This document shows, in pieces, positions 492 through 20,167 of a stretch of 20,167 bases of DNA. The DNA comes from a virus. The notes beneath the pieces are model-generated. The model saw only the letters and a program-made list of their open reading frames with translations, did not search any database and was not told the origin of the DNA. The stretch spans positions 1 through 20,167 of the IMG/VR virus record IMGVR_UViG_3300017968_000080; one strand, given 5' to 3'. Every line of letters starts with the position of its first letter. Position 1 is the stretch's first letter. The translations under genes were made by a program, and so were the position numbers.

Positions 492-531
492 GACGTTATA
501 ATTAAGACTGAAGTGGAGTGAATTAGTTTTC

Positions 532-1341: not shown

Positions 1342-1348
1342 GGTATCA

Positions 1349-2163: not shown

Positions 2164-2188
2164 AGGGATAGGAACCCCTTAAAAAGTT

Positions 2189-2208
2189 CTGATTTCTTCG
2201 CAAATCAG
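2189..2208 (+). other. RNA hairpin just upstream of a start codon
   Basis: CTGATTT (2189-2195) and AAATCAG (2202-2208) form a perfect 7-bp stem with the 6-nt loop CTTCGC. It ends 4 nt before the ATG at 2213. No U-run follows, so it is not a typical terminator. It could limit translation from read-through transcripts or stabilise the 3' end of the upstream message. In T4 some late genes carry hairpins that hide the start region on early transcripts; whether this one does so is untested. Confidence 0.5.
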
Positions 2209-2212
2209 TAAC

Positions 2213-2404: not shown

Positions 2405-2408
2405 GCTT

Positions 2409-2416
2409 CTAAATAA
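2409..2416 (+). promoter_or_regulatory. Putative T4-type late promoter, CTAAATAA
   Basis: CTAAATAA lies 32 nt upstream of the gp25 GTG start and is identical to the octamers at 484 and 16974. It probably starts the late transcript for gp25 and gp6. Confidence 0.65.
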
Positions 2417-2440
2417 GGTTGAATTGTTGTAAGTACTTCT

Positions 2441-2851
2441 GTGCCGATTCAACCTGCACAAAGAACCAGTCTTGGTTTCAAAGACATCAGCGCATCGTTT
2501 CAGATTAACCCTCTGAATGATGATTTGATTGCTTTGAAGAATGAGAACGCGATTGCTCGTGCTCTCAAGAATCTTGTGTTGACTGTTCCTGGAGAGAAAC
2601 CTTTCCAACCTGATGTGGGTTCTAACGTTTATGCGTTATTGTTTGAGAACTTTGATAAGTTGACTGCTGAGTCAATCAAATCAGAAATCGAAAACACCAT
2701 CAATAACTTCGAACCTCGTGTTCGTTTGAATAAAGTTACTGTTGAACCAAACTTTGACTCTTATGAGTTTAATGTAACTGTTCAATATTACATCGTTGGC
2801 ATCGATGTCCCTACACAACAACTCACCTTTGCCTTAGAACCCAACAGGTAA
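2441..2851 (+). CDS. 25: Baseplate wedge subunit gp25 (GPW/gp25 family)
   Basis: This is the 136-residue homologue of T4 gp25, a small wedge protein near the baseplate hub that helps start tail sheath assembly and has a lysozyme-like name only by history. The family signature is clear: AIARALKNLVLTVPGEKPF (residues 37-55), then QPDVGSNVYALLFENFD (56-72), and the FEPRV motif (90-94) that in contractile tails holds the EPR core. T4 gp25 is of similar length (about 132 residues). Translation must begin at GTG 2441, because an in-frame stop (TGA at 2420) lies just upstream with no ATG between them. The gene follows a CTAAATAA octamer and is separated from gp6 by one base, matching their joint role in the wedge core. 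Confidence 0.95.
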   Translation: MPIQPAQRTSLGFKDISASFQINPLNDDLIALKNENAIARALKNLVLTVPGEKPFQPDVGSNVYALLFENFDKLTAESIKSEIENTINNFEPRVRLNKVTVEPNFDSYEFNVTVQYYIVGIDVPTQQLTFALEPNR

Positions 2852-2852
2852 A

Positions 2853-4898
2853 ATGCCGTTAGTTAATTTTAGCAACGTAAACTTTGATCAGATCAAGCAA
2901 TCCATTCGTGATTACTTGAAGGCGAACTCAAACTTTACTGATTACGATTTCGAAGGGTCTAACCTGACGACAATCGTAGATGCTCTTGCATATAATACGT
3001 ATATTACTTCGTACAATGCCAACATGGTAACGAACGAAGTGTTCCTCGACAGTGCAACACTGCGAGAGAACGTTGTGTCTTTGGCAAGGAACATTGGGTA
3101 CGTTCCTAAGTCAAGGAAGTCTTCGATTGCGAATATCTCTTTTTATGTTAATGCCTCTGACAGTGACGCTGTAACGCTCACGCTCAAAGCAGGCATTGTT
3201 GCCATCACAAACAAGCAGTTCAATAATAACTCTTACGTCTTCTCAATTATTGACGACATCACAGTTCCTGTTGATTCAAATGGAATCGCTTTCTTCAATA
3301 ACATCAACATCTATGAAGGAACTTACGTCACACAAAACTGGACGGTCAGTTCCCGTAATCCAAATCAAAAATATTATCTGACCAATAGTGGAATTGACAC
3401 ATCACAACTGAAGGTTACAGTTCGTGAGTCAGAACAGTCCACCGTAAGTCGCACATACACACAATTCAGCTCGTTGGTGGGTGTGACACCTACAAGCACA
3501 ATCTATTACCTTCAGGAGTCTCCTGGAGAGCGCTACGAACTCTTATTCGGTGACAACGTATTCGGTGCAGCACTGCAGGAACCAAACTTTGTCACTGCAA
3601 ATTACATTACTTGCAACGGAGCAGCTGCCAACGGAATCTCTGCTTTCTCTTATGCTGGTCGTTTGATTGACAACGAAGGAAGAGTCGTTACTAAAGGCGT
3701 TTCTCTTCTTGCAACAAACTCTTCATCTCAAGGCGGAACAGCAATTGAAAGTTCTGACTCTGTAAGAAAGTATGCACCACAGATTTACGCTTCACAAAAC
3801 AGAGCGGTAACTGCTGCTGATTATGAAGCAGTTGTTCCTCAGGTTTACCCTGAAGCAGAATCGGTTTCTGCTTTTGGTGGTGAAGAACTTGATCCTCCAT
3901 CTTACGGAAAGGTTTTCATCAGCATCAAACCTTACAACGGTGTTTATCTCTCTGCTGACATCAAGAGAAACCTTCAAGCAGCATTGAGACAGTATTCTGT
4001 TGCTGGTATTGTTACTGAGATCATCGACCTCAAGTATCTTTATCTTGAGGCAGACAGTCGTGTTTATTACAATTCTAACCTTGCATCTTCTGCAAGTGCA
4101 ATCAAATCGGTTGTAAGTCAAAACATTGTCAATTATGCCAACTCGTCTCAACTGAACCAGTTTGGTGCACGCTTCAAGTATTCAAAGTTCCAGAATGTTA
4201 TTGACAGCAGTCACGAAGCGGTAACCTCAAACATTACCAACATTGCCATGAGAAGAGATATGGCTGCTCAGTTGAACACATTTGCTGAGTATGAGATCTG
4301 TTATGGAAACAGATTCCACATCAAGAACCATGGTCACAATGCTGTTTATGACGGTAAGATTATTGGTTACAACATCAAGTCTTCTGGTTTCAAAGTAAGT
4401 GGAATCAGTGAGACTGTTTATCTTGGTGACTCACCAAACATGGATCAAAAGACAGGGACCATCTTCCTGTTTAAACTGAGATCAGCAACTGAACCAGTTA
4501 TTTTGAAGAAAGGGATTGGAACCATTGATTACATCAAAGGTGAGATCAAACTCAATCCAATCAAGATTCTTTCAACTGTTGTCAGCAAAGGTAATCAACC
4601 CATCATTGAAATCTCGGCAACTCCTTTCTCAAATGATGTCATTGGTCTCCAAGATCTTTATCTTCAACTGGATAACACCAAGACAACAATCAATATGGTT
4701 CTTGATGGAATTGATTCTGGCGACGATGTTTCTGGAAGCAATTACATCGTCTCGTCCAGTTACAGTAATGGAAGTCTGATTAGGGGACCAATCCAAGTTG
4801 AAACGACAACTTCAACAACAACGACAACCACGACTGCGACCACAACAACAGTTACGACGACAGGATCTTCAGCAAGTTCCTCCTCAACGTCCTACTAA
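2853..4898 (+). CDS. 6: Baseplate wedge subunit gp6 (baseplate J-like)
   Basis: At 681 residues it is close to T4 gp6 (660). In T4, gp6 forms the continuous ring of wedges with gp25 and gp53. The N-terminus (VNFDQIKQSIRDYLKANSNF, then TDYDFEGSNLTTIVDALAYNT near residues 30-50) and the following FLDSATLRENVVSLARNIGY (residues 65-84) are typical of gp6/baseplate J proteins, as is the AVTAADYEAVVPQVYPEAESV segment near residues 320-340. A C-terminal domain around residues 480-585 (YEICYGNRFHIKNHGHNAVY onward) looks T4-like. After residue 648 the protein changes abruptly into a Thr/Ser-rich tail, 18 Thr and 8 Ser in the last 33 residues, not known to me in T4 gp6. AGG (2846-2848) inside the end of gp25 serves as ribosome binding site; the 1-nt gap implies coupling. 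Confidence 0.93.
   Translation: MPLVNFSNVNFDQIKQSIRDYLKANSNFTDYDFEGSNLTTIVDALAYNTYITSYNANMVTNEVFLDSATLRENVVSLARNIGYVPKSRKSSIANISFYVNASDSDAVTLTLKAGIVAITNKQFNNNSYVFSIIDDITVPVDSNGIAFFNNINIYEGTYVTQNWTVSSRNPNQKYYLTNSGIDTSQLKVTVRESEQSTVSRTYTQFSSLVGVTPTSTIYYLQESPGERYELLFGDNVFGAALQEPNFVTANYITCNGAAANGISAFSYAGRLIDNEGRVVTKGVSLLATNSSSQGGTAIESSDSVRKYAPQIYASQNRAVTAADYEAVVPQVYPEAESVSAFGGEELDPPSYGKVFISIKPYNGVYLSADIKRNLQAALRQYSVAGIVTEIIDLKYLYLEADSRVYYNSNLASSASAIKSVVSQNIVNYANSSQLNQFGARFKYSKFQNVIDSSHEAVTSNITNIAMRRDMAAQLNTFAEYEICYGNRFHIKNHGHNAVYDGKIIGYNIKSSGFKVSGISETVYLGDSPNMDQKTGTIFLFKLRSATEPVILKKGIGTIDYIKGEIKLNPIKILSTVVSKGNQPIIEISATPFSNDVIGLQDLYLQLDNTKTTINMVLDGIDSGDDVSGSNYIVSSSYSNGSLIRGPIQVETTTSTTTTTTTATTTTVTTTGSSASSSSTSY
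4803..4862 (+). repeat. ACN-codon repeat encoding the Thr-rich end of gp6
   Basis: Twenty consecutive codons are almost all ACN (Thr), interrupted once each by TCA, GCG and GTT. Third positions vary (ACA, ACC, ACG, ACT), so the tract is kept at protein level rather than being a recent pure microsatellite expansion. It encodes residues 651-670 of gp6. Confidence 0.85.
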
Positions 4899-4939: not shown

Positions 4940-7900
4940 ATGGCAGTCGATAGAGTAAGGATTCAGGATATCATCGAGAACCAACTCCCCACTTATGTGA
5001 GGGAGGATTTTCCTTTGCTTGGAGAGTTCTTAAAACAATATTACTTGTCCCAGGAAGTTGATGGGGCAGCATATGATTTGGTTCAAAATCTGGACCAGTA
5101 TATCAAGGTTGATGAGTTGTTTGATCTGACAACCACAACGGTTCTTGCTTCTAACGTTTCTTACACAGACCAGACCATCACTGCCGATGTTTCTGGTAAC
5201 TTCACTTACGGTTTCCCCGAAACAAACGGTCTGATTCAAATTGATGACGAAATCATCTTTTATGAGTCCAAGACAGATTCGACGTTTGAGGGGTGCAGAA
5301 GGGGTTTCAGCGGCGTTACAGATTACGTTGGGTCTAACACCCCCGACCAGCTGTTATTTGAAGAAACAGAGGCAGACAAGCACACTGCAGGCGCAACGAT
5401 CACGAACCTGAGTGTTCTGTTCCTGCAAGAGTTCTTCAAAAAGATTAAGTATCAGTTTGCTCCAGGATTCACCGAAAGATCTCTTTTCTCTGGACTGGAT
5501 CAAAGAAACTTTATTTTCGGTCTCGACAGTTTCTATAATTCAAAAGGAACAGAAGAGTCTTACAAGATTCTGTTCGGAGCACTTTATGGTGTTGCTGTTG
5601 ATGTCATTCGTCCAAGTGAATTTCTTCTTCGTCCTTCCAACGCTGATTATAAGGTAACTCGTGATTACATCGTCGAAACCATTCAGGGCAACCCACTTGA
5701 CCTCCTGAACCTGACACTGTTCCAAAAGTCAACAGATGCCAGAGGTTCTGTCAGTAATGTTGTTCCCATTGATTACGATCAAGGACAATATTATCAGATT
5801 AGTCTTGACGCTGGTTTCGACAGAGACGTTGAGGTTCAGGGTACCATCTTTGGTGAGTTCAAAGTCAACCCCAAGACCAAACTGCTCAACACTGTCTCCG
5901 CAGGTTCAACGATCCTCGACGTTGACTCGACCGTTGACTTCCCCGTCAAAGGTGATCTGGTAACCACAGACTTGGATGACAACATTATCAACCTGTCTTA
6001 TGACGGCAAGTCATCGACTCAACTTCTGAATGTGACTGGTGTTGATTATCAAATCAACGAGAAGACCGACATTCGTTTTGATGATTATTCTTATGGTTAC
6101 GTTGGAATTAACACTTCAAATGAAATTAGAGTTCGCATTGCTGCTTCTCTGAAAGATTTCCAACCTCAGTCTGGGAATTATGGTTATCTTGCAGGAGACA
6201 CTGCGGAAATTCAATCTCTTGGTTATGAGTCTTCAACCAAACTTTCGAAGAACTGGTTCCACAATAACAAGACCAGTTGGACTGTTGCAAGCGTAAGTCT
6301 GGTTGACTCGACAACTAACTCTTACGAAATTGAAACGTTTGACCCACACGAACTCAAGCCAGGTTATTCACTCAACCTAATCAACACAGTTGGTGGACAA
6401 ATTGTTGGTGCAACTGTTCTGAGAACAACAGGAGCAAAGTCCGTTATTGCGAGACTGACTGGAGTTATTGATGTCAACTCTTCTTACACACTTGAGCAGC
6501 AGATTCTGAAGGGAAGATCAGCATCTTACACTCAACTGAATGATTTTTATGCCAACGTTCAGAACACTTACACTAAGTTCAATGGTGATCTGTTGGTTGC
6601 TTCGAACTCAATTGCAAGATATGTAAACCTCGAAACTAATCCTGATTCCAAAATCAGAACTTTCAGTGGTTCGTTCAGCAACACTTACACCATTACGATT
6701 CCTAACCACGGTTTCTACACTGGACAAACTGTTTATTATCAACCAGGAATTACTAAGACAACCACAACGACTCCCGATGGAATCAAGGTTGTAACAGAAA
6801 CAGAAAGTAAGTTTGCAAGTGTTAGTGCTGGTCCTTTCTACATCAAGAGAGTTGATGTAAACACAATCAGTCTGGCAAAGAGCAGATCTGACATCTATGC
6901 CGACAAACTCGTTCTTCTGAATGGTGACGTTGAAAATAACACTCTGACTCTGTTTGAGTTTTACGGCAAGACCGTTAGACCTCAGGCACTTTACAGAGAG
7001 TTCACTACTCCAACAGACGAAAGCAAAGTCCATGTGACACAAGATGGTCACATCGGAATGCTTCTCAATGGTGTTGAAATTATCAACTATAAGTCAAAAG
7101 ACAGTGTTCGTTATGGTGAAATTCAATCCATCGACGTTGACAGTGGTGGTAAGGATTATGACGTAATCAACCCACCAGTTCTTCACATCGCCGATGATGT
7201 TGGTGTGGGAGCAACAGGAACTTGTGCCGTCACTGGTTCTCTGAGCAGAATCGAAATCATCGATCCTGGTTTTGATTATCAGGACACACCTGTCATCACC
7301 ATTTTGGGTGGCAACGGAACAGGTGCTGAAGCAAAAGCCAACATGACATCTGTTGAGCATTATGTTTCTTTCATTGCTGATCCTGGTTCAACTGATGTCA
7401 ATCTAACTAACAATACAATTGGTTTCTCAACTTTCCACAAGTTCAGAGACAATGAAAAAGTAACTTACATCACCGACACTCAAACCGCTGTTGGTGGAAT
7501 CAGCACAGGTGCACAATATCACGTCGGTGTTGTTAATGCCTCAACAATCAAACTGTATAACACTGAACTCGATGCTGTCAGTGGTGTCAACACGGTTTCG
7601 TTGACCTCTAATGGTTCTGGAACACATCGTCTCAAGTCAACCTCACTGAAGAGAATCATCTCGAACATTGTTGTTCCCTCCAGTGGTAGTGGTTATTCTA
7701 ACAATCAACAGAACATCCCCACCGTTGCTGGTGTCAGCACTGCTCTGAACCAGTTCAACATTCCAAACCATGGGTTCAACAACAAGGAAATTGTCAAGTT
7801 CACTCCAACTGGCGATGGAGTTCTTGGTCTTTCCTCGACCAGAGAATATTATGTTCACAAAGTAAACAACAACTCCTTCTCTGTCAGTGAAGTTGGAGTT

Positions 7901-10900
7901 GGTTCGACTGCTGTTGATTACTTCTATAATAACAATCTTTACGTCGATGTCCAGAGCGCAGGAACTGGTTCATTCAACTACAGACCAATCACCGTTACTG
8001 TTCAAGGTGTAACTGGCGTTTCGACTCTGACTGGTCAAGACTTCAATGCTGTTGTTCAACCAGTCTTCAGAGGACCCATCAGTTCGTTCAGTGTTTCGGC
8101 AACTGGTGTTGGTTATGGTTCTTCTGATATTATCAACTTTGACAGACAACCAACCATCACATTTGTAAGTGGTGCTCAGGCATCTGTTACTCCCGTAATC
8201 AGCAACGGTAAGATTGTTGAAGTCGTTGTCAATAACAAAGGTTATGGTTACAACTCACCACCAAATTTGACCATCAACAGCAATGATGGGAACTTTGCTG
8301 TTCTGACTCCAGTTATTGGTAACGGACAACTCCTGGAAGTTAAGGTCATCAAAGGTGGTGCTGGTTATTCTGCTTCTGACACATCAATCACAGTCACCCC
8401 AGCAGGAAGTCAAGCAAGAGCAATTGCAAACATCAGAAACTGGACAGTCAACCTGTTCCAAGAACATTATGCAAACTTGGAATCTGATGACGGAATCATC
8501 ACACAAAACATTGACAACTCAACTCTTCAGTACTCTCACCTTTATGCTCCTCGTCCTCTGAGAGAGTCCGTCTATTCAATCAGTGGAACGGATGCTGATA
8601 ATAATGTTTATGGTGTTGCTGACCTAAGCATTGTTTCTTCCAGTGAAGCAGAGAGCATTTTCCACTCTCCAATCATTGGATGGGCATATGACGGTAACCC
8701 AATCTATGGACCTTATGGTTTCGCCAATGCCGACGGAACTGGGGCAATCAGAAGAATGGTTTCCAGTTATGGTTTGGGGAACATTGCCAACCTCGATCAA
8801 GGAAACGAACCACCAATCGCATCTTGGCCAAATGGTTTCTTCGTTGAAGACTACATCTACAATGCAGATGGAGACCTTGACGAGCACAACGGAAGATATT
8901 GCATCACTCCCGATTATCCAAATGGTGTTTATGCTTACTTCGCAACAATTTCTCAAAACATTGACACCGATGGTCCATTTGAAAATTATAAGAGTCCAGT
9001 CTTCCCTTACTTGATTGGTAACACCTATCAATCAAAACCAATTGACTTCAACTTCAAGACGGTTTCAAACCAAACTGCTTATGATGTTGAGGGTCAAGGT
9101 TGGTTTAGAGAAACAACCTCTTATCACACTAACAGTCCCAGAAGTCAATATGATTATCTGTTTGACTCTTCTAAAGTTGTCAAGCAACTGGTCGAAGTTA
9201 CTGCAACCTCAACTGGTGGAATCGAAAGCGTTGGTATTGTAACTGGTGGTACTGGTTATAAGGTCGGTGACAAAGTTGTCTTCAACAACACAGGAACTGG
9301 TGGAAAACTCCTCGACGTTAAGGTTGCCAGAGTTGCTGGACAAGAACTTGATACTGTCAGTGTTGCTTCAACTTCATTCTCGAATGTTGAGTTTACAAGA
9401 AATACTGTTTATCCAAACAGATTCATTGGTCTGACTTCTGCACCACACAACTTCCTCAACAATGATGTTGTGACCATCAGTGGTGTCTCAACTTATTATG
9501 AGGGTTTCGGTGGAAGTTACAACGTTGGTGTTAGAAGTGACAACTTTGTTCTCACACTGGGTGTTGGAACTGCTGGCGCAACTGGCATCGTCACTTACTT
9601 CTACGTCTCTGGCGCATTTGACAACTCACACGTCAGAGAGAATGATCTGCTGACCATCGATCAAGAGATCGTTCGTGTTCTGAACATCGATGCGGTCACT
9701 GGAAGACTAAGAGTTCGTCGTGAGGAAGAAGGAACCACTGGTCTCGCTTATACCAATGGTAGTGTTCTTTATGAAGATCCCAGAAAGTTCTATGTGAACG
9801 TGGGTGTCATTAAGACTGATTACTCCTTCCCCATCAACAGAGAACTGTATTTCGATCCAGCAGAAGCGATCGGTGTTGGAACTGCTCTGGGAACTGGAGT
9901 CGGAACGACCATCACATTCGGTGATCCTGGAGTTGGAAGAACAAACATCTTCATTCAACCACAACAGTTCTACTTCCCAAGTCACAAACTGAGACTGAAT
10001 GATAAGGTTCTTTATGCAACCAATGGTGGTAACTCCATTCAGGTTTGGAACGGAACCGCAGGAACTGCTTACACAAGTTTGAGTCAGTTCTCTCCACTTT
10101 ATGCTGTTCCTTTCAACGAGAACTTCGTTGGTTTCGGAACAAACAAAGTTGGTCTTGGAACCACTGGTGGTTTTGTCGGTGTCAACACATCAACTGGACT
10201 CCTTTACTTCACCTCAGTCGGAACTGGCAACACTCACAGTTTCACAACTGACCTTCTGGGTGTTCTGTCTGGTAAGACCGCAAGAAACATCGTCACGGTC
10301 TCCACAGCGTCCACTCACACTCTCCAGAAGGGTGATGCGGTTTACGTCAACATTAAACCAGTTGGCGTCACAACAGTTACTGTTAAGTATGACGATTATA
10401 ACCGTCGCATTGTCTTTGATCCACAAGACTTTGTTGCTGGCAATGTCAACACAACACTCAACACCATTGAATTCTCCAACAACCCATTCAAACGTGGCGA
10501 CAAGGTAATTCACACGGCAACTTCACCTTCTGGTGGATTGACTGATGAAGCAATGTATTATGTCATTCCTTATGATGAGACCAAGATTCGTTTGGTCGCT
10601 AATAAGTTTGAACTGTCTGCCTTAGATCCAAAGTTTGTCAACCTCACAAGTGCTTCAGCAGGAACACTTTCTAAGATCAACCCTGCTGTTGAGACAACTA
10701 AGAATAGAACACTGAAGTTTGATCTGTCTGATTCTTCACTGTCCTTTGTTGTTAACGGAATCACTTATTCCGCATTTGATATGAATCTCTATAGTGATGC
10801 GGATTATGCGAACCTGTTCGTTAAGACTCCACTCACCGATTCATTTGAAGTTGTCAAGTCTGGAAGACCTGGCATCGATGCCACTGCTAATCTTCAACTG

Positions 10901-13900
10901 AAGTTCACGGATGAGATTCCTGATCAACTCTTCTATCGTTTTGATCTTGACAATGAAAATCTTATCACAGATGTCAAGAAAGAAATTGAAATTGATAAGG
11001 ACGTTCCCAATAACAGTGAACTTAACGTTGAGTTCACAGCGTTTGATGGAAGACACGTTATTACTGGAATTGGAACAACCACATTCCAATATGACATTCC
11101 AGAAGTTCCATCGGTCACACAATATAACATCAGCAACTCTCAGTTCACTTATGAGACTAATTCGACCAATGTAACTGGTCCAATTTCTAAACTGAGAATT
11201 GATGGTGCAGGTGTTGGATTCAAAGTTCTCCCTGGTGTCACTTCTGTTAGAAGTGCAGAAGGTTCTGGAGCAATTGTAAGACCAGCAAGCACAAAGATTG
11301 GATCAATCTTGCAAACCAAGTTCAATAACATTGGTTTTGATTATCCTTCCGACTCCACCCTCAGAGCAGTTTCTAATCTCCCAGAGATCCTGGAAGTCGA
11401 ATCTCTTGCTTCTTTTGAGAGCATCGGAATCTCTTCTCAAGGTAGAAACTATCTGAGAGCACCAAATCTGGTTGTTATCGATGGATTCACTGATGAAATC
11501 GTTGATGGTCTGGATCTTGCTTATGATCTTGGCGATGAGCAAGTCACAATCATCGACAACACCACTGGAATTTACGATGTTCCCCCAAGAATCATTCCAG
11601 TCAATAACACCAACGGACTTGGGATTGCCTCTGTCTCTTACAACTCAACCACAAAGATTGTCAGAGCATTTATTGATAGAAACTTCACAACTCCAGAAGC
11701 AAGTCAGTTTAATTTCCCAATCGGCGCTAAGGTTCTGGTTGAGAACCTGAGTGTTGGTGTTGGAAGCACTGGTGTTGGTTATAACTCAGCAGATTACGAT
11801 TACACATTCTTTGAAGTTGTTGGTTTTGATAAGAAACTTGATTCTTCCAAACCTTATGTCGATTACAGTCTTGTCAATCTGATTAAAGAAGGAGAAATTC
11901 CAGGTAATCTGGACGAAAACAACTCTTATGGTCGCATCATCAACACACAAGATCTTGCGACTTATAATCCAACTCTCCAAACAAACAACTATTTGGTTGG
12001 TGAAAAAGTAACAAACCAAAATGATCTTGTTGGAACTGTCCAGAGATGGAATTCAACAACACAACAGTTGGTCATTTTGTCTGCCAGTGAGTTTGCTGTG
12101 GATGACAGAATCACTGGTCGTTCTTCGAACACTCAAAGCGTTGTCAAAACAAAAGTTGATTTTACTTCTGAAATCAACACTGGTGCTGGTTCGACTGTCA
12201 ATGATGGTTGGCAAACCACTTCTGGTTTCTTGAATGACAACCTGCAAAAACTTCCAAACAATGAATATTATCAGAACTTCTCTTACTCACTGAACTCCAC
12301 CATTCCTTATGCCACTTGGAATGATCCAGTGAGTGCTCTGGACCACGCAGCAGGTTTTGCTAAGTTTGCCGATTTGGACATCATTTCAAAAGAAGATGTT
12401 TCTAGAGCAATCATTCAGACTGAAGATTCCAATGTTGAAAGAATCATCGACATTGTTGGTGAGGCAAGTCTGCATTGTGAATATGATTGGGATCTGGTTT
12501 CTGAAGAGACAATCACTGTTGGTAATCAAATCGTTTCAACAGAAGTTCTGTTTGATGACAAACTTGTCAAAGATTATGTTGAGTGTGTTGGAAACAGAGT
12601 CATCCCAATCGATGACATCAGTGATCAGTTCAACAGCACACAGAGAACCACACCTTTCGCAATTGTTGAATCGTTCAGTGACAATGAACCTTACACCAAG
12701 TTCCTGACTTTCGTAAGAGATGCCAACTTCACAAATGAGAGACAGTTCTCAATTGTTGCTGTTGTTCAAGATGGAACGAACACTTTCATTCAAGAATATG
12801 CAACAACTCAGATCAACGATGAACTGGGTTCATTTGATGCAGTTGACACAACTGTTGGTTGGGATCTTTATTATTATCCTCAACAGTTTGCGTTCAATAA
12901 CTATGACATCTCCACATTGTCGTTCAACATCTTTAGTGACAGTGTAGTTGAGAAAAACGACTTCTTTGGTAACAATGTTTTGGTTGCAAGTGCCACCACT
13001 GATGTTGGTGCTGGAACCACAACCACTCTGGTGTCCATCTCAAGCACTTACAGATCCGCTAAGTGTCTGGTGATGACAAGAGACGGAAACGATCAAGCAA
13101 CTGGAACTGAACTGAATTTGATTCATGATGGAACAGATGTTTACCTGAATGAATTCGGCAATATGATGACCAGTGGTGACGCTGTGTTCAACGGAATCGG
13201 AACATTTGGTGCTTCAATCTCTGGTTCAAATATTGTTATTCAATACACTCCAGACTCTGGAGTTGGATCAATGACTGCCAGCACTTCAGTTGTTGCGATT
13301 GCATCTTCTGCAACTGGAGTTGGTTCAACAGCAATGGAAACTGCTCTGTTGTCCTCAACTTATTATGAAATCTCTCCCGATGCATCACCAACAGCACAAA
13401 CTGTTGCTTCTTATGAGGAACCTTATCAGGCAAATTACTTTATCGTTTCAGTTGAAGATGTAACCAACTCAAATTATGAAATGTTTGAGTTTGTCATTTT
13501 GAATGATGAAACAACTCAGCATGTTCTTGAGTTTGGAAACATCAGAACGGGTGGCGCAGTTGGAACGGTTGGTATTGCACAAACCGTTGGTGATCGAATC
13601 GACCTGACCTTCACTGCAAACACCAGTTCAAACACAACAGTTAGAACGTTCTCTGTTGGTCTCCAACCATTCAACAACAATGGTCAGTCAACGGTCTTTG
13701 ATAATGGTCTTGTTCAGATTGAAAGTGACAATGAGCGCTATGTTGGAACCAAGGTTGAAGTTACCAGTACCTTTGGACTGAAGTCTGGTGGTCTTGAAAT
13801 CTTCAGAAGGTCATTCGACGGAAGTGACTCAGCAATTGTTGATGTCAATGATCACACAGTCAGACTGAACAATCACTTCTTTGTCACTGGTGAGAGAGTT

Positions 13901-16900
13901 GAATATCGTTATGGTGACACTCCAATTGGAATTGTCACAGCGACTGTTCCTGGAATTGGTTCAACTGATCTTCTCCCACAGGATCTTTACGTTGTTAAAA
14001 CTGGTGCCGATAAACTCAAGTTTGCAACCACTGCTGAGAATGCACTGAAAGCAAACCCAGTTGTTCTGGAACCAAATGTAGTTGGTGTTGGAACATCTCA
14101 CAGTTTGACTGCATATAACCAGAACGCAAAGGTTATGGTTGCCATTGATAACATGATTCAGTCTCCAATCGCTGAGACCAGAATCTTCTCTGTTCTCAAT
14201 CAAGACATCGTTCTTGGACCAACTTTGGAGACAACAGGAATAACGTCATTCTATGCAAATGATATCATCAAGGTTGAAGATGAATACATGATCATCACGG
14301 GTGTTGGTGGTGACAATCCAACAGACCTTCAGGTTCTGAGAGGTCAGTTGGGAACCATTGCAATTCCACACCAGAGTGGAGTCACTATTCAGAAATTCAT
14401 CGGTCAATATAACATTACCGACAGCACAATCAACTTCGTTGATGCTGCGAAAGGTAAGACACCTCTGAGCACAACAACTGGAAATCCAAACTACAGAGAC
14501 TGGACTGGAATCACAACTCACTCCACATTCCAAGGAAGAGCATTCTTCAGACGTGCTCCAGTTGGTTCTTCGAGCGAAACTTATCACAACAACTTTGTCT
14601 TTGATGACATTTCGCCCGACTTTAGCGGAATCACCAGTGAGTTTGTTCTGAAGTCTGGTAATGCAACTCAGATTGGTTTCTCCACTGATAATGGAATCGT
14701 CCTTTACAACGGTGTCTTCCAACAACCTAACAGCCCAACCGTAATCAACAACTACGGAATGGCAGAAAGTGGCATCACAACAATCACTTTCCAAGGGACT
14801 GCGATTCAGGACGGAACCGACATCAACAAGGCAACTCTCCCAGTTAAGGGAAGAATTCTTTCTGTTGGTTCAACTCAAGGATTTGGTTTCCAACCTCTGG
14901 TTTCTGCAGGAGGAACGGCAAACGTTTCTGTCGCTGGAACAATTACATCCATCAGCATTGGTAACACTGGATCTGGTTACAGATCTGGAATTCAAACAGT
15001 TGTCAATGTTGGTGTTCAAACTTACAGCAACGGAATTCCCAACCTTGAGTTCATTGGAACTGCTGCCATCAGCGGCGGTCACATTGTAAGCATTGCAATC
15101 ACCAATCCTGGAACTGGTTACACTTCAACTAATCCACCAGAAGTTGTTATTGATTCACCATTCCCCTACACCAACATCCCTCTGATTTACAGCGGAATCA
15201 CAACCGCAGGTGTTGGAACAGATGCAAAAGTTGACATCATTGTCGGTGGTTCTTCAAGCGTTAGATCTTTCGAGTTCACGCAGTTTGGTTACAACTATGG
15301 TGATGGAGACATCCTCACAGTTGCAGTCGGCGGAGCAACTGGAATTCCAACTGACACAACTAAGACTTATGGTGAGTTCCAACTGACTGTTGAAAGTCTT
15401 TATGATGATTCTGTCAACATGTGGACTGTTGGTTCTCTCAAGGTTCTTGATCCTCTTGATTCTCTGTTCAACAGTGAGAGAACAAGATTCCCACTTAGTG
15501 TTGCTGGAATCACAACTTGGGTCAATCCAGAAGAGGGACGTGGACTTGATCTAAACTATAACCTGTTGGTCTTTATCAATGATATTCTTCAGCAACCCAA
15601 GATCGCTTACACCTTCGATGGTGGAAGTCAGATCACTTTTGCTGAAGCACCACAACTCGGTGACTCTTCCAAGATTCTGTTCTATCAAGGAACTTCTGAG
15701 ATTGACATCGTTGATGCAGAAATTATTAGCAACGTGAAGGCAGGAGATACTCTTGAAATTCGCCACGATGTTGACAGAGGTCAAGATGTAACTCTCGATC
15801 AGGATCCAAGAATTGTTACTGAAGTTGTTACCAGTGATCTGGTTGAAACTGACCCATACACTGGCGGTGGAATCACACAGGATGAAACACTTCAGAGACC
15901 AGTTACATGGTGTCGTCAGTTGTCCGACTTGATTATCGATGGTGCTCCAGTTGGTAAAGACAGAGATGAATATGAGGGTAACTTCTTCCCAACAACTGCA
16001 ATTCTAAAGGCTGTTGGTGTTGGTTCAACTGTCGTTTACGTTGAAAACAGCAACCTGTTTGATCAATCAAATGAAGGTGCTGGAATTAGCACTTATCAGA
16101 AGGGTCTGATCATTAGATCTCAAGACACTCTGACTGCTGCCGCTGCGACAGCAACCGTTTCCACTGCTGGAACAATCACTGCATTTACAGTCACAAATGC
16201 TGGTTTCGGTTACACTGTCGCTCCTGCTGTCACAGTTTCAACTCCTGTCGGTGTTGGAACAACACAAAGAGCAACAGGAACTGCTGTTCTGAGTGGATCG
16301 ACTGTCGATTCTATCACGGTTACTTCACCTGGAACTGGTTATTCCTCAGTTGCACCTGCTGTTCTGATCGAAGAACCAACCATCACTTATGAAAACTGTC
16401 TCGCTTACAGTTATGAAGGTGATTTCGGTACGATTGTTGGTGTCGGAACAACAACTTCTGGTTCACAAAGTCAGTTCTACTTTGACACCTTCATTCCTTC
16501 TGACTCGACAATGAGAAATGCGCTTTATGTTGGAACCGCAGTTACGGTTAGTGGCATTTCAACGTCAGATTATCTGGTCATCAAGAACACAAACTTGTCA
16601 ATCGGTGGAACATTTGCTTCACAAACAACCACTGGTGCTCATATTGGCATTGCAACAACTGCTCTCGACTGTGTTTATCAGGTTGCTTCTTTCGAAGACA
16701 ACGATCAAATCATCCATGAGGGTTCTCTGGTTGGATTTACAACCACTTTGAGAAGAATCTTCGTGAATGTGGACAACGCAGGAAGCGTCGGTTACACAAC
16801 CGCACCCTATATGGGCGACTTCAGTTGGGGCAAAATCACTCTGGAAGACAGAGCGAACCCACAATCCTTCAACTTCTATGGCGACAACGGTGTTTCTGGA

Positions 16901-16966
16901 ATTTCAACTTCCGCTTTGGTCATTCGCCAGAACCCATTGAAGGATAGTGGTTTCACAACCACCTAA
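4940..16966 (+). CDS. Giant modular virion structural protein in the gp7 position, 4008 aa
   Basis: One unbroken 12-kb frame encodes about 0.43 MDa of protein. AGGAA (4935-4939) touches the ATG. It lies between gp6 and gp8, where T4 has gp7 (1032 aa), so it is probably a baseplate wedge protein doing or extending gp7's job, but no gp7 sequence was recognised. The N-terminal 280 residues (RIQDIIENQLPTYVREDFP onward; FPLLGEFLKQYY; GTEESYKILFGALYG) look like a unique docking domain. The rest is beta-rich and repetitive: G-x-G-Y modules (residues about 728-1155, 1425-1457, 2081-2182, 3333-3467, 3744-3813), H-G-F/G-D-x-V modules (584-1891 and 2972-3033), I-D-x-E modules (97, 1568, 3107), a YHYH-like domain (1235-1341), a tandem triplet (2585-2909) and fibre-like segments (3257, 3545). 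About nine cysteines occur in the whole chain; no signal peptide or transmembrane segment is evident. Giant structural ORFs are known in T4-like cyanophages. Confidence 0.9.
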   Translation: MAVDRVRIQDIIENQLPTYVREDFPLLGEFLKQYYLSQEVDGAAYDLVQNLDQYIKVDELFDLTTTTVLASNVSYTDQTITADVSGNFTYGFPETNGLIQIDDEIIFYESKTDSTFEGCRRGFSGVTDYVGSNTPDQLLFEETEADKHTAGATITNLSVLFLQEFFKKIKYQFAPGFTERSLFSGLDQRNFIFGLDSFYNSKGTEESYKILFGALYGVAVDVIRPSEFLLRPSNADYKVTRDYIVETIQGNPLDLLNLTLFQKSTDARGSVSNVVPIDYDQGQYYQISLDAGFDRDVEVQGTIFGEFKVNPKTKLLNTVSAGSTILDVDSTVDFPVKGDLVTTDLDDNIINLSYDGKSSTQLLNVTGVDYQINEKTDIRFDDYSYGYVGINTSNEIRVRIAASLKDFQPQSGNYGYLAGDTAEIQSLGYESSTKLSKNWFHNNKTSWTVASVSLVDSTTNSYEIETFDPHELKPGYSLNLINTVGGQIVGATVLRTTGAKSVIARLTGVIDVNSSYTLEQQILKGRSASYTQLNDFYANVQNTYTKFNGDLLVASNSIARYVNLETNPDSKIRTFSGSFSNTYTITIPNHGFYTGQTVYYQPGITKTTTTTPDGIKVVTETESKFASVSAGPFYIKRVDVNTISLAKSRSDIYADKLVLLNGDVENNTLTLFEFYGKTVRPQALYREFTTPTDESKVHVTQDGHIGMLLNGVEIINYKSKDSVRYGEIQSIDVDSGGKDYDVINPPVLHIADDVGVGATGTCAVTGSLSRIEIIDPGFDYQDTPVITILGGNGTGAEAKANMTSVEHYVSFIADPGSTDVNLTNNTIGFSTFHKFRDNEKVTYITDTQTAVGGISTGAQYHVGVVNASTIKLYNTELDAVSGVNTVSLTSNGSGTHRLKSTSLKRIISNIVVPSSGSGYSNNQQNIPTVAGVSTALNQFNIPNHGFNNKEIVKFTPTGDGVLGLSSTREYYVHKVNNNSFSVSEVGVGSTAVDYFYNNNLYVDVQSAGTGSFNYRPITVTVQGVTGVSTLTGQDFNAVVQPVFRGPISSFSVSATGVGYGSSDIINFDRQPTITFVSGAQASVTPVISNGKIVEVVVNNKGYGYNSPPNLTINSNDGNFAVLTPVIGNGQLLEVKVIKGGAGYSASDTSITVTPAGSQARAIANIRNWTVNLFQEHYANLESDDGIITQNIDNSTLQYSHLYAPRPLRESVYSISGTDADNNVYGVADLSIVSSSEAESIFHSPIIGWAYDGNPIYGPYGFANADGTGAIRRMVSSYGLGNIANLDQGNEPPIASWPNGFFVEDYIYNADGDLDEHNGRYCITPDYPNGVYAYFATISQNIDTDGPFENYKSPVFPYLIGNTYQSKPIDFNFKTVSNQTAYDVEGQGWFRETTSYHTNSPRSQYDYLFDSSKVVKQLVEVTATSTGGIESVGIVTGGTGYKVGDKVVFNNTGTGGKLLDVKVARVAGQELDTVSVASTSFSNVEFTRNTVYPNRFIGLTSAPHNFLNNDVVTISGVSTYYEGFGGSYNVGVRSDNFVLTLGVGTAGATGIVTYFYVSGAFDNSHVRENDLLTIDQEIVRVLNIDAVTGRLRVRREEEGTTGLAYTNGSVLYEDPRKFYVNVGVIKTDYSFPINRELYFDPAEAIGVGTALGTGVGTTITFGDPGVGRTNIFIQPQQFYFPSHKLRLNDKVLYATNGGNSIQVWNGTAGTAYTSLSQFSPLYAVPFNENFVGFGTNKVGLGTTGGFVGVNTSTGLLYFTSVGTGNTHSFTTDLLGVLSGKTARNIVTVSTASTHTLQKGDAVYVNIKPVGVTTVTVKYDDYNRRIVFDPQDFVAGNVNTTLNTIEFSNNPFKRGDKVIHTATSPSGGLTDEAMYYVIPYDETKIRLVANKFELSALDPKFVNLTSASAGTLSKINPAVETTKNRTLKFDLSDSSLSFVVNGITYSAFDMNLYSDADYANLFVKTPLTDSFEVVKSGRPGIDATANLQLKFTDEIPDQLFYRFDLDNENLITDVKKEIEIDKDVPNNSELNVEFTAFDGRHVITGIGTTTFQYDIPEVPSVTQYNISNSQFTYETNSTNVTGPISKLRIDGAGVGFKVLPGVTSVRSAEGSGAIVRPASTKIGSILQTKFNNIGFDYPSDSTLRAVSNLPEILEVESLASFESIGISSQGRNYLRAPNLVVIDGFTDEIVDGLDLAYDLGDEQVTIIDNTTGIYDVPPRIIPVNNTNGLGIASVSYNSTTKIVRAFIDRNFTTPEASQFNFPIGAKVLVENLSVGVGSTGVGYNSADYDYTFFEVVGFDKKLDSSKPYVDYSLVNLIKEGEIPGNLDENNSYGRIINTQDLATYNPTLQTNNYLVGEKVTNQNDLVGTVQRWNSTTQQLVILSASEFAVDDRITGRSSNTQSVVKTKVDFTSEINTGAGSTVNDGWQTTSGFLNDNLQKLPNNEYYQNFSYSLNSTIPYATWNDPVSALDHAAGFAKFADLDIISKEDVSRAIIQTEDSNVERIIDIVGEASLHCEYDWDLVSEETITVGNQIVSTEVLFDDKLVKDYVECVGNRVIPIDDISDQFNSTQRTTPFAIVESFSDNEPYTKFLTFVRDANFTNERQFSIVAVVQDGTNTFIQEYATTQINDELGSFDAVDTTVGWDLYYYPQQFAFNNYDISTLSFNIFSDSVVEKNDFFGNNVLVASATTDVGAGTTTTLVSISSTYRSAKCLVMTRDGNDQATGTELNLIHDGTDVYLNEFGNMMTSGDAVFNGIGTFGASISGSNIVIQYTPDSGVGSMTASTSVVAIASSATGVGSTAMETALLSSTYYEISPDASPTAQTVASYEEPYQANYFIVSVEDVTNSNYEMFEFVILNDETTQHVLEFGNIRTGGAVGTVGIAQTVGDRIDLTFTANTSSNTTVRTFSVGLQPFNNNGQSTVFDNGLVQIESDNERYVGTKVEVTSTFGLKSGGLEIFRRSFDGSDSAIVDVNDHTVRLNNHFFVTGERVEYRYGDTPIGIVTATVPGIGSTDLLPQDLYVVKTGADKLKFATTAENALKANPVVLEPNVVGVGTSHSLTAYNQNAKVMVAIDNMIQSPIAETRIFSVLNQDIVLGPTLETTGITSFYANDIIKVEDEYMIITGVGGDNPTDLQVLRGQLGTIAIPHQSGVTIQKFIGQYNITDSTINFVDAAKGKTPLSTTTGNPNYRDWTGITTHSTFQGRAFFRRAPVGSSSETYHNNFVFDDISPDFSGITSEFVLKSGNATQIGFSTDNGIVLYNGVFQQPNSPTVINNYGMAESGITTITFQGTAIQDGTDINKATLPVKGRILSVGSTQGFGFQPLVSAGGTANVSVAGTITSISIGNTGSGYRSGIQTVVNVGVQTYSNGIPNLEFIGTAAISGGHIVSIAITNPGTGYTSTNPPEVVIDSPFPYTNIPLIYSGITTAGVGTDAKVDIIVGGSSSVRSFEFTQFGYNYGDGDILTVAVGGATGIPTDTTKTYGEFQLTVESLYDDSVNMWTVGSLKVLDPLDSLFNSERTRFPLSVAGITTWVNPEEGRGLDLNYNLLVFINDILQQPKIAYTFDGGSQITFAEAPQLGDSSKILFYQGTSEIDIVDAEIISNVKAGDTLEIRHDVDRGQDVTLDQDPRIVTEVVTSDLVETDPYTGGGITQDETLQRPVTWCRQLSDLIIDGAPVGKDRDEYEGNFFPTTAILKAVGVGSTVVYVENSNLFDQSNEGAGISTYQKGLIIRSQDTLTAAAATATVSTAGTITAFTVTNAGFGYTVAPAVTVSTPVGVGTTQRATGTAVLSGSTVDSITVTSPGTGYSSVAPAVLIEEPTITYENCLAYSYEGDFGTIVGVGTTTSGSQSQFYFDTFIPSDSTMRNALYVGTAVTVSGISTSDYLVIKNTNLSIGGTFASQTTTGAHIGIATTALDCVYQVASFEDNDQIIHEGSLVGFTTTLRRIFVNVDNAGSVGYTTAPYMGDFSWGKITLEDRANPQSFNFYGDNGVSGISTSALVIRQNPLKDSGFTTT
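5228..5330 (+). repeat. First copy of the I-D-x-E module (giant protein residues 97-130)
   Basis: The segment reads IQIDDEIIFYESKTDSTFEG followed by CRRGFSGV. It matches later copies at 9641 (LLTIDQEIVRVL, then RVRREEEGTTG) and 14258 (IIKVEDEYMIIT, then LQVLRGQLGTI). The shared plan is hydrophobic-(I/V)-D/E-x-E, a hydrophobic strand, then R-R/G-x-x-G-T. It is probably a small beta domain. Confidence 0.6.
7121..8410 (+). repeat. Dense array of G-x-G-Y and H-G-F modules (residues about 728-1157)
   Basis: Six G-x-G-Y-type modules lie here: IQSIDVDSGGKDYDVINPPV (728), LSRIEIIDPGFDYQDTPVI (768), IVVPSSGSGY (911), FSVSATGVGYGSS (1050), IVEVVVNNKGYGYNSPPNL (1092) and LLEVKVIKGGAGYSASD (1131). The plan is strand (I-x-x-I/V-x-V), two or three residues, G-x-G/D-Y, then P-x-V/I strand. 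Two H-G-F modules (residues 826-876 and 938-985) are interleaved. Similarity is at protein level; codons differ, so the duplications are old. Confidence 0.75.
8645..8962 (+). other. YHYH-type domain lacking the YHYH residues (giant protein residues about 1236-1341)
   Basis: The segment GWAYDGNPIYGPYG (residues 1247-1260) and DLDEHNGRYCITPDYPNGVY (1312-1331) match the core of the YHYH domain (D-G-x-P-I-Y-G-P-Y ... L-D-E-x-N-G-R ... P-D/E-Y-P-x-G-x-Y). Where the name-giving Tyr-His-Tyr-His is expected, this protein has Y-A-Y-F (1331-1334), losing both histidines. The domain is found in secreted and viral proteins; its role is not well established. Here it would be surface-displayed as part of the virion (inference). 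Confidence 0.7.
12692..13666 (+). repeat. Tandem triplet of about 120-residue beta units (residues 2585-2909)
   Basis: Three segments align: FLTFVRDANFTNERQFSIVA then VVQDGTNTFIQEYATTQ (from 2585), CLVMTRDGNDQATGTELNLI then HDGTDVYLNEFGNMMTSG (from 2705), and FIVSVEDVTNSNYEMFEFVI then LNDETTQHVLEFGNIRTGG (from 2830). Spacing is 120 and 125 residues. Common plan: strand, R/E-D, E/Q-hydrophobic strand, D-G/E-T, hydrophobic strand ending E-F-G/E-Y-A, then a long strand pair. The units are diverged at DNA level. The second and third are closest. Confidence 0.75.
15572..15685 (+). other. Fibre-like F-I-N-D-I-L-Q segment (residues 3545-3582)
   Basis: FINDILQQPKIAYTFDGGSQ followed by ITFAEAPQLGDSSKILFYQG resembles a motif common in phage tail fibres and baseplate proteins: hydrophobic-N-D/G-x-x-Q-x-P, Y-x-x-x-G, I-x-F-x-x-A-P-x-x-G-D and a final strand. 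A second, weaker copy begins YNGVFQQPNSPTV near residue 3256. It suggests that the C-terminal quarter forms a fibre- or arm-like beta region. Confidence 0.6.
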
Positions 16967-16998: not shown

Positions 16999-18552
16999 AT
17001 GGCAGCAATAATTACTGACCAACTTCGTATTTTGAATGCCAAGAATTTTGTTGCTGGCGTCCAGTCAACATCAAATTCTTATTACACATTCATTGGTCTT
17101 CCCAATGCGACGAATTATTCGTCAACTTGGGACACGGATCCTCCTGCGCCGAAGGATAACCTGACCGAATCGAATGATTATTATGACACAATGTTGGCTT
17201 TGAAAAAAGTCAACACAAACGACGTTGCCCAGGTTGTGAGAAAGATTTCCTGGCAGTCTGGAACCACATATGATATGTGGAGAAATGACATCAGTCGTTC
17301 AAATCCATCAGAACCCTCTGGTGCGTTTGATATTTACGACTCGAATTTCTATGTGATGAACTCTGACTTCAGAGTTTACATCTGTCTTTATAATAATGCC
17401 ACTCCTGAGAACAATTATCAGGGTGGTCCTTCTTTGGATGAACCAACTTTCACAGATTTGGAACCCAGATCTGCTGGTTCAAGTGGTGATGGTTACATTT
17501 GGAAGTATCTTTACACCATCAAACCATCCCAAGCAATCAAATTTGACTCCACAGATTACATTCCAACCCCAAGTAACTGGGATACCAGCTCTGATAACGC
17601 TGCCGTTCGTAATAACGCTGGTACAAGTGGTCAATTGAAGATCATCACCATCAGAAATCGTGGTGTTGGTCTCGGAACTGCTAACTCAACTTACAGAAAT
17701 GTCCCAATTTTGGGAGATGGACAGGGCGGAAAGTGCACAATCGTCATTGATAACGACTCAAAGGTCAATTCTATCACTGTTTCTGACGGTGGAACGGGAT
17801 ATACCTTCGGAACTGTCGATTTGGTTGCTGGTGGAGTCCCAACTGGAACCACTTCTCCCGTTTTTAATGTCATTATTCCTCCAAATGGGGGTCACGGAAA
17901 GGATATTTACCGTGAATTGGGCGCATTTAACGTTCTGACTTATGCCAGATTCGAAAATGACACCGAAAATCCTGATTTTATCACTGGAAACCAGTTTGCA
18001 AGAGTCGGATTGATCGAAAATCCACTCGCTGCGGGTTCAGAAAGCAATTTGGACACCGATAAAGCAGCTGCAACTTATGCAGTTCGTCTTGCAGGTGCTG
18101 GATATAGCGAAGCAACCTTCACTCCTGACTCATACATCACGCAAACTGTCGGTGTTGGGTCAACTGCGGTCGGAAGAGTTGTTTCTTATGACCAAACAAC
18201 AGGTGTTTTGAAGTATTGGCAGGACAGAACCAACTGTGGATTCAATTCTGACGGCACTTTGAACACAAGTCCTGTTTATGGTTTCAGAGAAAATCGTTTC
18301 ACAGCGACTCCCAACAGTGGTGACCTCACAATTAGTGGTGGAAGCATCAATTTGTCGATTAGCACCGCTTTCCAGGGTGTCTCTACGGTAATAAATAACA
18401 GAACATACTACCTGGGACAGACATTTGTGTCTGGACTGGCTGACCCAGAAGTCGAAAAATACTCTGGAAACATCGTTTATGTTGACAACAGACCTTCTGT
18501 AACCAGAAGTTCCTCTCAGAAAGAAGACGTTAAAATCATCTTGCAGTTCTAA
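16999..18552 (+). CDS. 8: Baseplate wedge subunit gp8, enlarged (517 aa)
   Basis: The T4 gp8 signature is visible. GDGYIWKYLYTIKPS (residues 163-177) matches T4 GDGYVWEYLFEIPPD, FARVGLIENPL (333-343) matches FRQISIITNPL, and the C-terminal SGNIVYVDNRP (489-499) then EDVKIILQF matches SGEMIYMENRPP and the hydrophobic T4 end. T4 gp8 is 334 residues. The extra length lies mainly between residues about 205 and 330 and between 344 and 480. The first insertion contains two G-x-G-Y-like modules (IITIRNRGVGLG and INSITVSDGGTGY-type), the same module that fills the giant neighbour, and the second has VGVGSTAVGRVVSYDQTTGV. In T4, gp8 dimers bridge wedge proteins gp7 and gp10. No clear Shine-Dalgarno sequence precedes the ATG; the upstream sequence is A-rich. 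Confidence 0.9.
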   Translation: MAAIITDQLRILNAKNFVAGVQSTSNSYYTFIGLPNATNYSSTWDTDPPAPKDNLTESNDYYDTMLALKKVNTNDVAQVVRKISWQSGTTYDMWRNDISRSNPSEPSGAFDIYDSNFYVMNSDFRVYICLYNNATPENNYQGGPSLDEPTFTDLEPRSAGSSGDGYIWKYLYTIKPSQAIKFDSTDYIPTPSNWDTSSDNAAVRNNAGTSGQLKIITIRNRGVGLGTANSTYRNVPILGDGQGGKCTIVIDNDSKVNSITVSDGGTGYTFGTVDLVAGGVPTGTTSPVFNVIIPPNGGHGKDIYRELGAFNVLTYARFENDTENPDFITGNQFARVGLIENPLAAGSESNLDTDKAAATYAVRLAGAGYSEATFTPDSYITQTVGVGSTAVGRVVSYDQTTGVLKYWQDRTNCGFNSDGTLNTSPVYGFRENRFTATPNSGDLTISGGSINLSISTAFQGVSTVINNRTYYLGQTFVSGLADPEVEKYSGNIVYVDNRPSVTRSSSQKEDVKIILQF

Positions 18553-18558
18553 AAAATC

Positions 18559-20167
18559 ATGCCACAGGAAACTAATCTCAACGTTGCTCCTTATTTTGAC
18601 GACTTTGAACCTGACAGTAACTATTATAAGGTTCTGTTCAAACCTGGATATCCTGTTCAGGCGCGAGAATTAACGACTCTTCAGTCAATTCTTCAGAACC
18701 AGATTGAAGATGTGGGCAATCACCTCTTCAAAGAGGGTGCTGCTGTCATTCCTGGTGGCGTAACTTACGAAAAAAGCTTCTACGGAGTCCAAATCCAAGC
18801 GGAATATCTTGGAGTTCCCGTTTCACTTTACCTTGATCAGATTGTAGGTCAGACAATCACTGGTGCAACGTCTGGTGTAACCGCAAAGGTGGTCACTTAC
18901 ATCACTAATGAGCAGTCTGAGAAGGGAAATTACACACTTTATCTGAATTATCAGAATTCAGGAAGCACTGACGCAGCAACAGCGACGTTCATTGATGGTG
19001 AAGTTCTTCTAACCAACAGTGCGATCACTTATGCAACAACCTTTATCTCCGCTGGAGAAGGTTTTGCTTCGACAGTTCCTCAACAAGCAGCAATTGTTGG
19101 TTCTGCCTTCACTCTGAGTGCTGGTGTCTTCTTCCTCAGAGGTTATTTTGTCGATGTTCCTGATTCACTTCTGATTCTGAGTCAATACACTAACACACCA
19201 AGTGTTAGAGTTGGTTTGAATGTTTTGGAGGAGATCATTAACTCCGAAACTGACCCAACACTCAATGATAACGCAAAAGGGTTTAATAATTACACTGCTC
19301 CAGGCGCAGATCGTCTGAAAATCACTGCAACACTGTTTGCAAAACCACTTGACGACTTTGATGATCAATCTTTCGTCCAGTTGGCAGAAATCCAAAACGG
19401 AAATCTCCGCAAAATCACCGATAACACCCAATATAACTTTATTGGGGACGAATTTGCCCGCAGAACTTACGATGAGTCAGGTCATTATTATGTAAAAGAG
19501 TTTGTCACCACCGTTCGTGAAAATTTGAACGATGGACGAGGAAATAGAGGCATTTATAACGCTGGTCAGACCACTTCGAGTGGAAATGCTCCAAGTGCAG
19601 ACAATATTGTTTACAAAATTTCCCCAGGTAAGGCATATGTAAGGGGATATGAGGTTGATTTGCGTGCATCAACGCTAATTGACGTTGCAAAACCCAGAAC
19701 CACAAAAACTCTGGATCCACAAGCGATTAATTTTGGGTTTGGACCCACTTTTACGCTGAATAACGTTTATGGTTCAGCAACAATCGGTTTCAACACCTCA
19801 AACACCATCAGTTTGAGAGACGAAAGAGTTGGATCCGACCAAGAGGCAAGAGCAGGTAAAGAAATTGGTGTTGCCCGCATTTATGACTTCGCTCTGGAGT
19901 CTGGATCTTACAATTCTGCTGTTCCAACAGCAAACGAGTGGGATTTGTCACTTTGGGACGTTCAGACTTACTCTGATTTCACTGTAAACACTGCAGTTAC
20001 ACTTTCCACACCAACTCACATCAAAGGTGAGTCAAGTGGGGCGAGTGCTTTCCTCAAATATGGTGTTTCTGCTGGAACTGCCTTCACTGCTTACGATGTT
20101 CAAGGTGATTTCTTCAATGGAGAGAGACTTCTCTTCAATGGAGTCGCAGATGAAAGCAGGTATGTCA
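18559..20167 (+). CDS. DUF4815-like virion structural protein (3' end outside window)
   Basis: An ATG at 18559, 6 nt after the gp8 stop, opens a frame that runs without a stop to the window end (536 complete codons). The protein starts MPQETNLNVAPYFDDFEPDS and continues with NYYKVLFKPGYPVQARELTT, which is the typical opening of DUF4815 proteins found in T4-like cyanophages. Further typical segments are LQNQIEDVGNHLFKEGAAVIPGG-like text (residues about 46-70), FFLRGYFVDVP (about 192-202) and VYKISPGKAYVRGYEVDL (about 351-368). TITGATSGVTAKVV (about 98-111) resembles a small repeat also seen in the giant protein. Position after gp8 suggests the place taken by gp9/gp10 in T4, i.e. a baseplate or fibre-attachment protein, but no homology to those was recognised. 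It has no strong ribosome binding site and probably depends on gp8 translation. Confidence 0.85.
   Translation, partial: MPQETNLNVAPYFDDFEPDSNYYKVLFKPGYPVQARELTTLQSILQNQIEDVGNHLFKEGAAVIPGGVTYEKSFYGVQIQAEYLGVPVSLYLDQIVGQTITGATSGVTAKVVTYITNEQSEKGNYTLYLNYQNSGSTDAATATFIDGEVLLTNSAITYATTFISAGEGFASTVPQQAAIVGSAFTLSAGVFFLRGYFVDVPDSLLILSQYTNTPSVRVGLNVLEEIINSETDPTLNDNAKGFNNYTAPGADRLKITATLFAKPLDDFDDQSFVQLAEIQNGNLRKITDNTQYNFIGDEFARRTYDESGHYYVKEFVTTVRENLNDGRGNRGIYNAGQTTSSGNAPSADNIVYKISPGKAYVRGYEVDLRASTLIDVAKPRTTKTLDPQAINFGFGPTFTLNNVYGSATIGFNTSNTISLRDERVGSDQEARAGKEIGVARIYDFALESGSYNSAVPTANEWDLSLWDVQTYSDFTVNTAVTLSTPTHIKGESSGASAFLKYGVSAGTAFTAYDVQGDFFNGERLLFNGVADESRYV

Follow-up and report, generated by a model that had tools for sequence, protein, structure and literature searches.

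The window analysed here is a 20,167-nucleotide stretch of viral DNA. Two conserved cyanophage genes are found upstream, one at 532–1341 (PHROG 1574, unknown function) and one at 1492–2163 (PHROG 3704, listed as ferredoxin). They are followed, on the plus strand, by homologues of the sheath initiator gp25 (2441–2851, PHROG 261, E = 2.5e-56) and of gp6 (2853–4898, PHROG 219, E = 1e-192; Pfam Gp6-like_1st, E = 3e-16), by a giant gene at 4940–16966, and by a gp8 homologue (16999–18552, PHROG 438, E = 3e-163; Pfam Phage-Gp8, E = 1e-12). The last gene (VrlC/DUF4815, 18559–20166, Pfam PF16075, E = 3e-34) is open and cut by the window end, and its match in S-SM2 is a gene annotated as VrlC. The gene order is gp25-gp6-giant gp7-gp8-VrlC. 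The giant gene starts with ATG, encodes 4008 residues and includes its stop codon within the end coordinate. It is a single uninterrupted ORF with gp6 on one side and gp8 on the other. A sequence-only reading of this DNA had described a single intact 12-kb frame in the gap between gp6 and gp8, and this description holds, because the frame has no internal stops and recurs at full length in other contigs. These independent contigs carry frames of 4008 aa (99.9% and 91% identity), 4009 aa (75%) and 4025–4028 aa (51%). A T4-type late promoter (TATAAATA) was looked for and not found, and a nucleotide search against the phage collection returned no match.

The giant protein matches PHROG 2885 ("baseplate wedge subunit") with 3521 bits, residues 4–3362 aligning to positions 8–3356 of the 4179-position profile. 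When residues 1–300 were used in tblastn, matches were found in 468 phage records, nearly all of them cyanophages, and many of these records carry the name "gp7, baseplate wedge initiator". Therefore, the family was previously known and named, and the window protein is a new member of it. The N-terminal 280 residues had been called unique, which does not stand, since the 468 records encode a match to this region. Annotated giant gp7s in Kyanoviridae include those of P-TIM68 (4307 aa) and P-SSM2 (5195 aa). The smallest protein in the gp7 slot has 482 aa (ACP17) and the largest 6817 aa (ACG-2014d), and 4008 residues is mid-range for the family. P-TIM68 gp7 is 44.7% identical to the window protein over residues 5–3885 and shares with it the slot and the N-core, YHYH domain, C-core and C-terminal block described below, but in P-TIM68, unlike in the window, gp7 and gp8 are separated by a gp10-like gene. 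The same gap differs between two contigs (L257 and L259) whose giant gp7s are alike in length and equally identical to the window protein: in one of them it is occupied by a gp10-like gene and a gene of 512 aa, and in the other both are missing, as in the window. From this contrast the gp7-gp8 gap looks like an exchange site. In the complete record of ACG-2014b (NC_047718), the window gp8 as query found no gp8 and gave no more than a short stretch of similarity within the giant protein.

The N-terminal conserved region (N-core, residues 1–290) has three segments. Residues 1–60 (4940–5119) are predicted as a helix-turn-helix, to which shorter slot proteins of other phages (compact gp7s) can be aligned. 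In the AF2 model helices were placed at residues 8–14, 18–23 and 25–39 with pLDDT of about 42–56, and we propose this segment as a putative gp6-binding bundle. Residues 62–155 (5123–5404) are a beta insert, with strands over residues 61–120 modelled at pLDDT of about 76–87; about 500 further residues are inserted at this site in ACG-2014b/d. Residues 156–290 (5405–5809) contain the motif FYxSKGT..LFxxLYG at about 198–216, and this segment is backed by the matches to T4 residues 727–758 and 727–813 given below.

A plain phmmer search of the whole protein against PDB gave no match. Pfam PF23786 (Baseplate_wedge) scored 20.5 bits at the window N-terminus, under the 27-bit gathering cut-off, and reached 40 bits in Melnitz-1 and 31.8 bits in ACG-2014b. 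A profile of 51 N-termini (A2) was then searched against all PDB sequences, and its best two matches were both T4-type gp7s, the KP1-type protein (E = 7e-6) and T4 gp7 at residues 727–758 (E = 1.5e-5), with no credible match besides these two. When A2 was aligned by hhalign with the T4, Aeh1 and KVP40-like gp7s, the probability was 96.7% and E was 4.5e-10 over T4 residues 727–813. The direct similarity between the window N-core and T4 is limited to about 90 columns, and the longer alignment leans on intermediates. In the fold comparison with T4 gp7 that the sequence-only reading had suggested, Foldseek matches of the N-core model alone reached E = 0.003–0.06 only, the TM-scores to T4 gp7 were low, and the model itself was weak (mean pLDDT 62.6). 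Because this model was too weak alone, a second structure prediction was made on a compact relative.

The compact gp7s were reached by searching outward from Methylophilales phage Melnitz-1, which has an 896-aa protein in the slot. The slot proteins are 498 aa in Xanthomonas X1, 482 aa in Acidovorax ACP17, 503 aa in Stenotrophomonas IME-SM1, 767 aa in Caulobacter Cr30 and 1006 aa in Sinorhizobium phiN3. An alignment of these five (A4) matched T4 gp7 at residues 643–829 with E = 2.9e-11. The AF2 model of Cr30 gp7 was weak (mean pLDDT 48.6), being better at residues 100–210. When it was compared with PDB by Foldseek, three T4-type gp7 chains were found at E = 1.4e-6 to 1.2e-5 (chain 5iv5_BJ was assigned as gp7 by its length); these were the sole matches below E = 0.001, and the next match was at 0.13. 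The compact gp7s (482–1006 aa) have the slot, the N-core and the C-core as in the window, but lack the giant insertion. The N-core beta insert is absent from all five aligned proteins, and among the compact gp7s it is found in the Methylophilales phage alone. The compact-gp7 profile also matches a 663-aa frame of T4 outside gp7 (NC_000866, 98821–100047, E = 3.5e-8), and this match covers profile columns 257–441, which are the beta-module part.

The PDB profile matches, the hhalign alignment, the bridge through the compact gp7s and the Foldseek result together indicate that the N-core and an internal stretch of T4 gp7 are homologous. T4 gp7 (NP_049765, 1032 aa; PDB 5iv5, 5hx2) occupies the same slot between gp6 and gp8, with the homologous core at residues 643–829. 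Gene order and the N-core match thus agree with the earlier assignment of the protein to the T4 gp7 slot. The layout is different. T4 gp7 has about 640 residues ahead of the core, whereas the window protein has no such N-terminal extension, its core beginning at residue 1, and instead carries about 2100 residues inside the core and a further 1500 or so behind it. Consistently, the T4 gp7 profile matches the giants just around the core region. T4 domains V and VI (PF21427, PF21456) were not detected in the window protein at E ≤ 1, nor in P-TIM68, ACG-2014b and two contig relatives at E ≤ 0.1, while T4 matches both. The earlier proposal that the N-terminus may carry the wedge docking function is supported in that this region carries the conserved gp7 core, but its counterpart is the T4 interior at about 643–829 and not the T4 N-terminus.

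A second conserved piece, the C-core, was found far downstream. The C-terminal part of the compact gp7s contains a conserved motif (DS.YQ.FSY.I.S....Y...V...LHP.G), and an HMM built from the five non-cyanophage compact gp7s only was used to search the giants. It matched residues 2422–2485 of the window protein (12203–12394) with about 40 bits and E of about 6e-10 at Z = 50000, values taken from copy L271, which is 99.9% identical. The HMM matched every giant tested, with reversed and shuffled decoys below 3 bits, and the C-core was also present in 114 of the 116 closed compact-type ORFs having an N-core. On T4-type gp7s the matches were weak (T4 862–890, Aeh1 970–997 and KVP40-like 932–959; 12–15 bits, E = 0.04–0.3; decoys at most 3.5 bits), and the extension of the C-core to these proteins is suggestive only. 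With the piece at 2422–2485, the core extends past the N-terminal 280 residues that the sequence-only reading had set apart. In the window about 2130 residues lie between the two pieces, against a few hundred in the compact gp7s (480–1000 aa). The ancestral core is thus divided into halves by about 2100 residues of beta modules. Some 1500 residues come after the C-core in the window; the gp7s of ACG-2014b and S-CREM2 end shortly past it. Annotations of giant gp7 genes in marine cyanophages existed before, and it is the split-core layout that appears not to have been described previously.

The beta-module region of residues 581–1896 (6680–10627) contains seven 'HGF' and seven 'GxGY' modules. 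In the whole protein there are 11 GxGY modules, each of which, when held out, outscored 200 shuffles of itself, by a narrow margin in three cases, and eight HGF modules, of which five passed leave-one-out and the other three are tentative. The mosaic of beta modules noticed earlier is borne out by these held-out tests. A trace of a GxGY module (9.6 bits) was also seen in gp8 (16999–18552) at residues 255–271, which suggests, on sequence similarity, some sharing of modules among wedge proteins. Residues 1242–1340 (8663–8959) form a YHYH domain (PF14240, E = 5.5e-26, 92.2 bits against a cut-off of 25). A hydrolase role has been proposed for this domain (PMC7824862). With the canonical motif inferred from the family name and not from an alignment with bacterial members, the window motif reads YAYF, the histidines being lost; it is similarly changed in most aligned relatives, and the second histidine is kept in two only. 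The enzymatic activity of the window domain is thus doubtful. Several more YHYH matches occur in ACG-2014d, in separate proteins. The long insertions of relatives are located at fixed points, chiefly near window residues 3350–3400. The hot spot at residues 3321–3414 (14900–15181), between two GxGY modules, holds about 620 extra residues in G021, 1080 in P-SSM2 and 1780 in S-SSM7.

Selection was estimated along the chain. Against two of the contigs with full-length frames, dN/dS of the giant gp7 was 0.084 and 0.173, with every segment at 0.04–0.22; against the closest diverged relative it was 0.04–0.10 in each segment. The neighbours gp6 and gp8 gave 0.05–0.12. All segments are at low dN/dS, and thus the constraint is common to the whole chain; the inference that the frame is under selection, drawn earlier from its integrity, is confirmed as purifying selection over the full length. 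No hypervariable tip or accelerated region was visible in the per-segment dN/dS. These values bear on the possibility that the protein kept a gp7 core while its main job became host recognition, as an adhesin array of beta modules, lectin-like domains and repeats. Such an array would fit the concanavalin-like lectin domain found in viral contig G009/L260 at about residue 2970 (E = 3e-14), a concanavalin-like domain in ACG-2014b (E = 2e-5, under the Pfam cut-off), the repeated F-C-D-YPR motifs in the long insertions of relatives and the presence of the YHYH domain in all aligned members. However, the window protein has neither a lectin domain nor YPR repeats, its YHYH motif is degenerate, and the even purifying selection leaves no fast-evolving tip. 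Because lectin domains and repeats do occur in relatives, a host-recognition role keeps some probability, but we consider it unlikely as the main job.

The C-terminal block (residues 2934–4008, 13739–16966) is a separate gene in some phages. Window residues 2934–4006 align with an ORF of 1101 aa that stands on its own in contig G022/L265, and residues 3132–4000 with portions of a 3001-aa S-SSM7 gene located beyond a gp10-like gene. A sequencing error was rejected for these two splits, since a stop and a start of their own delimit the parts and a gene intervenes in S-SSM7. A two-gene split in contig L038 is likely such an error, being a frame shift at about 2906–2909 after which the giant frame continues. 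The annotation of SSSM7_103 of S-SSM7 as a second gp7 was rejected, because this protein matches window residues 3132–4000 only; the gene at 67650–76655 of NC_015287 (L268:10151–19153) matches the C-terminal block only, so its gp7 name looks misplaced. The occurrence of the two parts as separate genes in G022/L265, and in S-SSM7 with a gp10-like gene between them, would fit a chain that is translated whole and then cut into a gp7 of about 2900 residues and a separate protein of about 1070. Against this, most close relatives keep the single frame, and such cleavage seems very improbable.

The window record comprises just 20,167 bases, so the whole-genome tests were run in complete relatives. 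In nine of these, the T4-type gp7 profile never matched more than one place in a genome, and that place was always the N-core of the giant; the match was found in six, and was below threshold in P-HM2, S-H34 and Melnitz-1. The compact-gp7 profile found gp7 in all nine, and in other genes it also picked up module sequence that is shared. None of the nine showed a second, true gp7 at another site, which the sequence-only reading had named as an observation that would count against it. For cyanophages, these results conflict with a previous report (PMC7029224) that gp7 is absent from cyano- and pelagimyophages and that VrlC is its substitute. VrlC homologues were located beside the giant gp7, downstream of gp8, in all six cyanophage genomes tested. 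Absence of gp7 and its substitution by VrlC in cyanophages are therefore not supported by the sequence comparisons. That gp7 is missing, VrlC acts in its role and the slot is filled by chance with a giant structural or fibre protein of other descent, as that report and the empty phmmer search against PDB might suggest, can hardly be maintained when profile searches tie the N-core to T4 gp7, VrlC and the giant coexist in the same genomes, and no complete relative has another gp7.

Evidence from virions is available for a distant member. The S-CREM2 orthologue (1937 aa), which has both core pieces but is distant from the window protein, was detected in virions by mass spectrometry with 91 unique peptides (PMC10665884), so this gp7 family reaches the particle. 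In T4, six gp7 copies are present, and gp7 and gp8 form the platform for gp6 dimer binding (PMC3004832). In Vibrio phage XM1, the N-terminal helices of the 242-aa gp7 orthologue form a core bundle with gp6-type proteins, and tail spikes are attached on a loop inside the core domain and on the C-terminal tail (PMC10457771). This protein, gp17, is a minimal one compared with the 4008 residues in the window, and its attachment sites resemble the places expanded in the window, the two being likened by description and not by sequence.

Taken together, we consider it probable that the giant protein is the Kyanoviridae gp7 orthologue, whose two-piece core binds gp6 and whose beta modules form an outward peripheral scaffold. 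The N-core (1–290) and the C-core (2422–2485) would fold together, and the folded core would dock on the gp6 dimer below gp25 and nucleate the wedge, as happens in T4. By analogy, the beta modules may extend outward and form a covalent scaffold at the periphery, replacing the N-terminal 640 residues of T4 gp7 and probably also part of the gp10/gp11/gp12 periphery. Such a scaffold would hold the fibres and would not itself be the variable receptor tip. The arm, skirt or receptor-probing array that the sequence-only reading suggested for the rest of the chain is a hypothetical arrangement. A stronger version is put forward tentatively and is somewhat doubtful: in marine cyanophages the wedge initiator absorbed the baseplate periphery into one chain, its core closing once about 2100 inserted residues have been translated and the fused proteins doing the work of gp10, gp11 and fibre attachment.

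Sources disagree on marine T4-like phages: a giant gp7 is named in genome records, whereas the comparative study reports gp7 as missing with VrlC instead. The bipartite core indicates by sequence which gene is gp7, and the domain limits that it supplies can guide cloning and model building. One orthologous slot, from 482 to 6817 residues, would represent a structural hub that grows by internal insertion while its core is retained.
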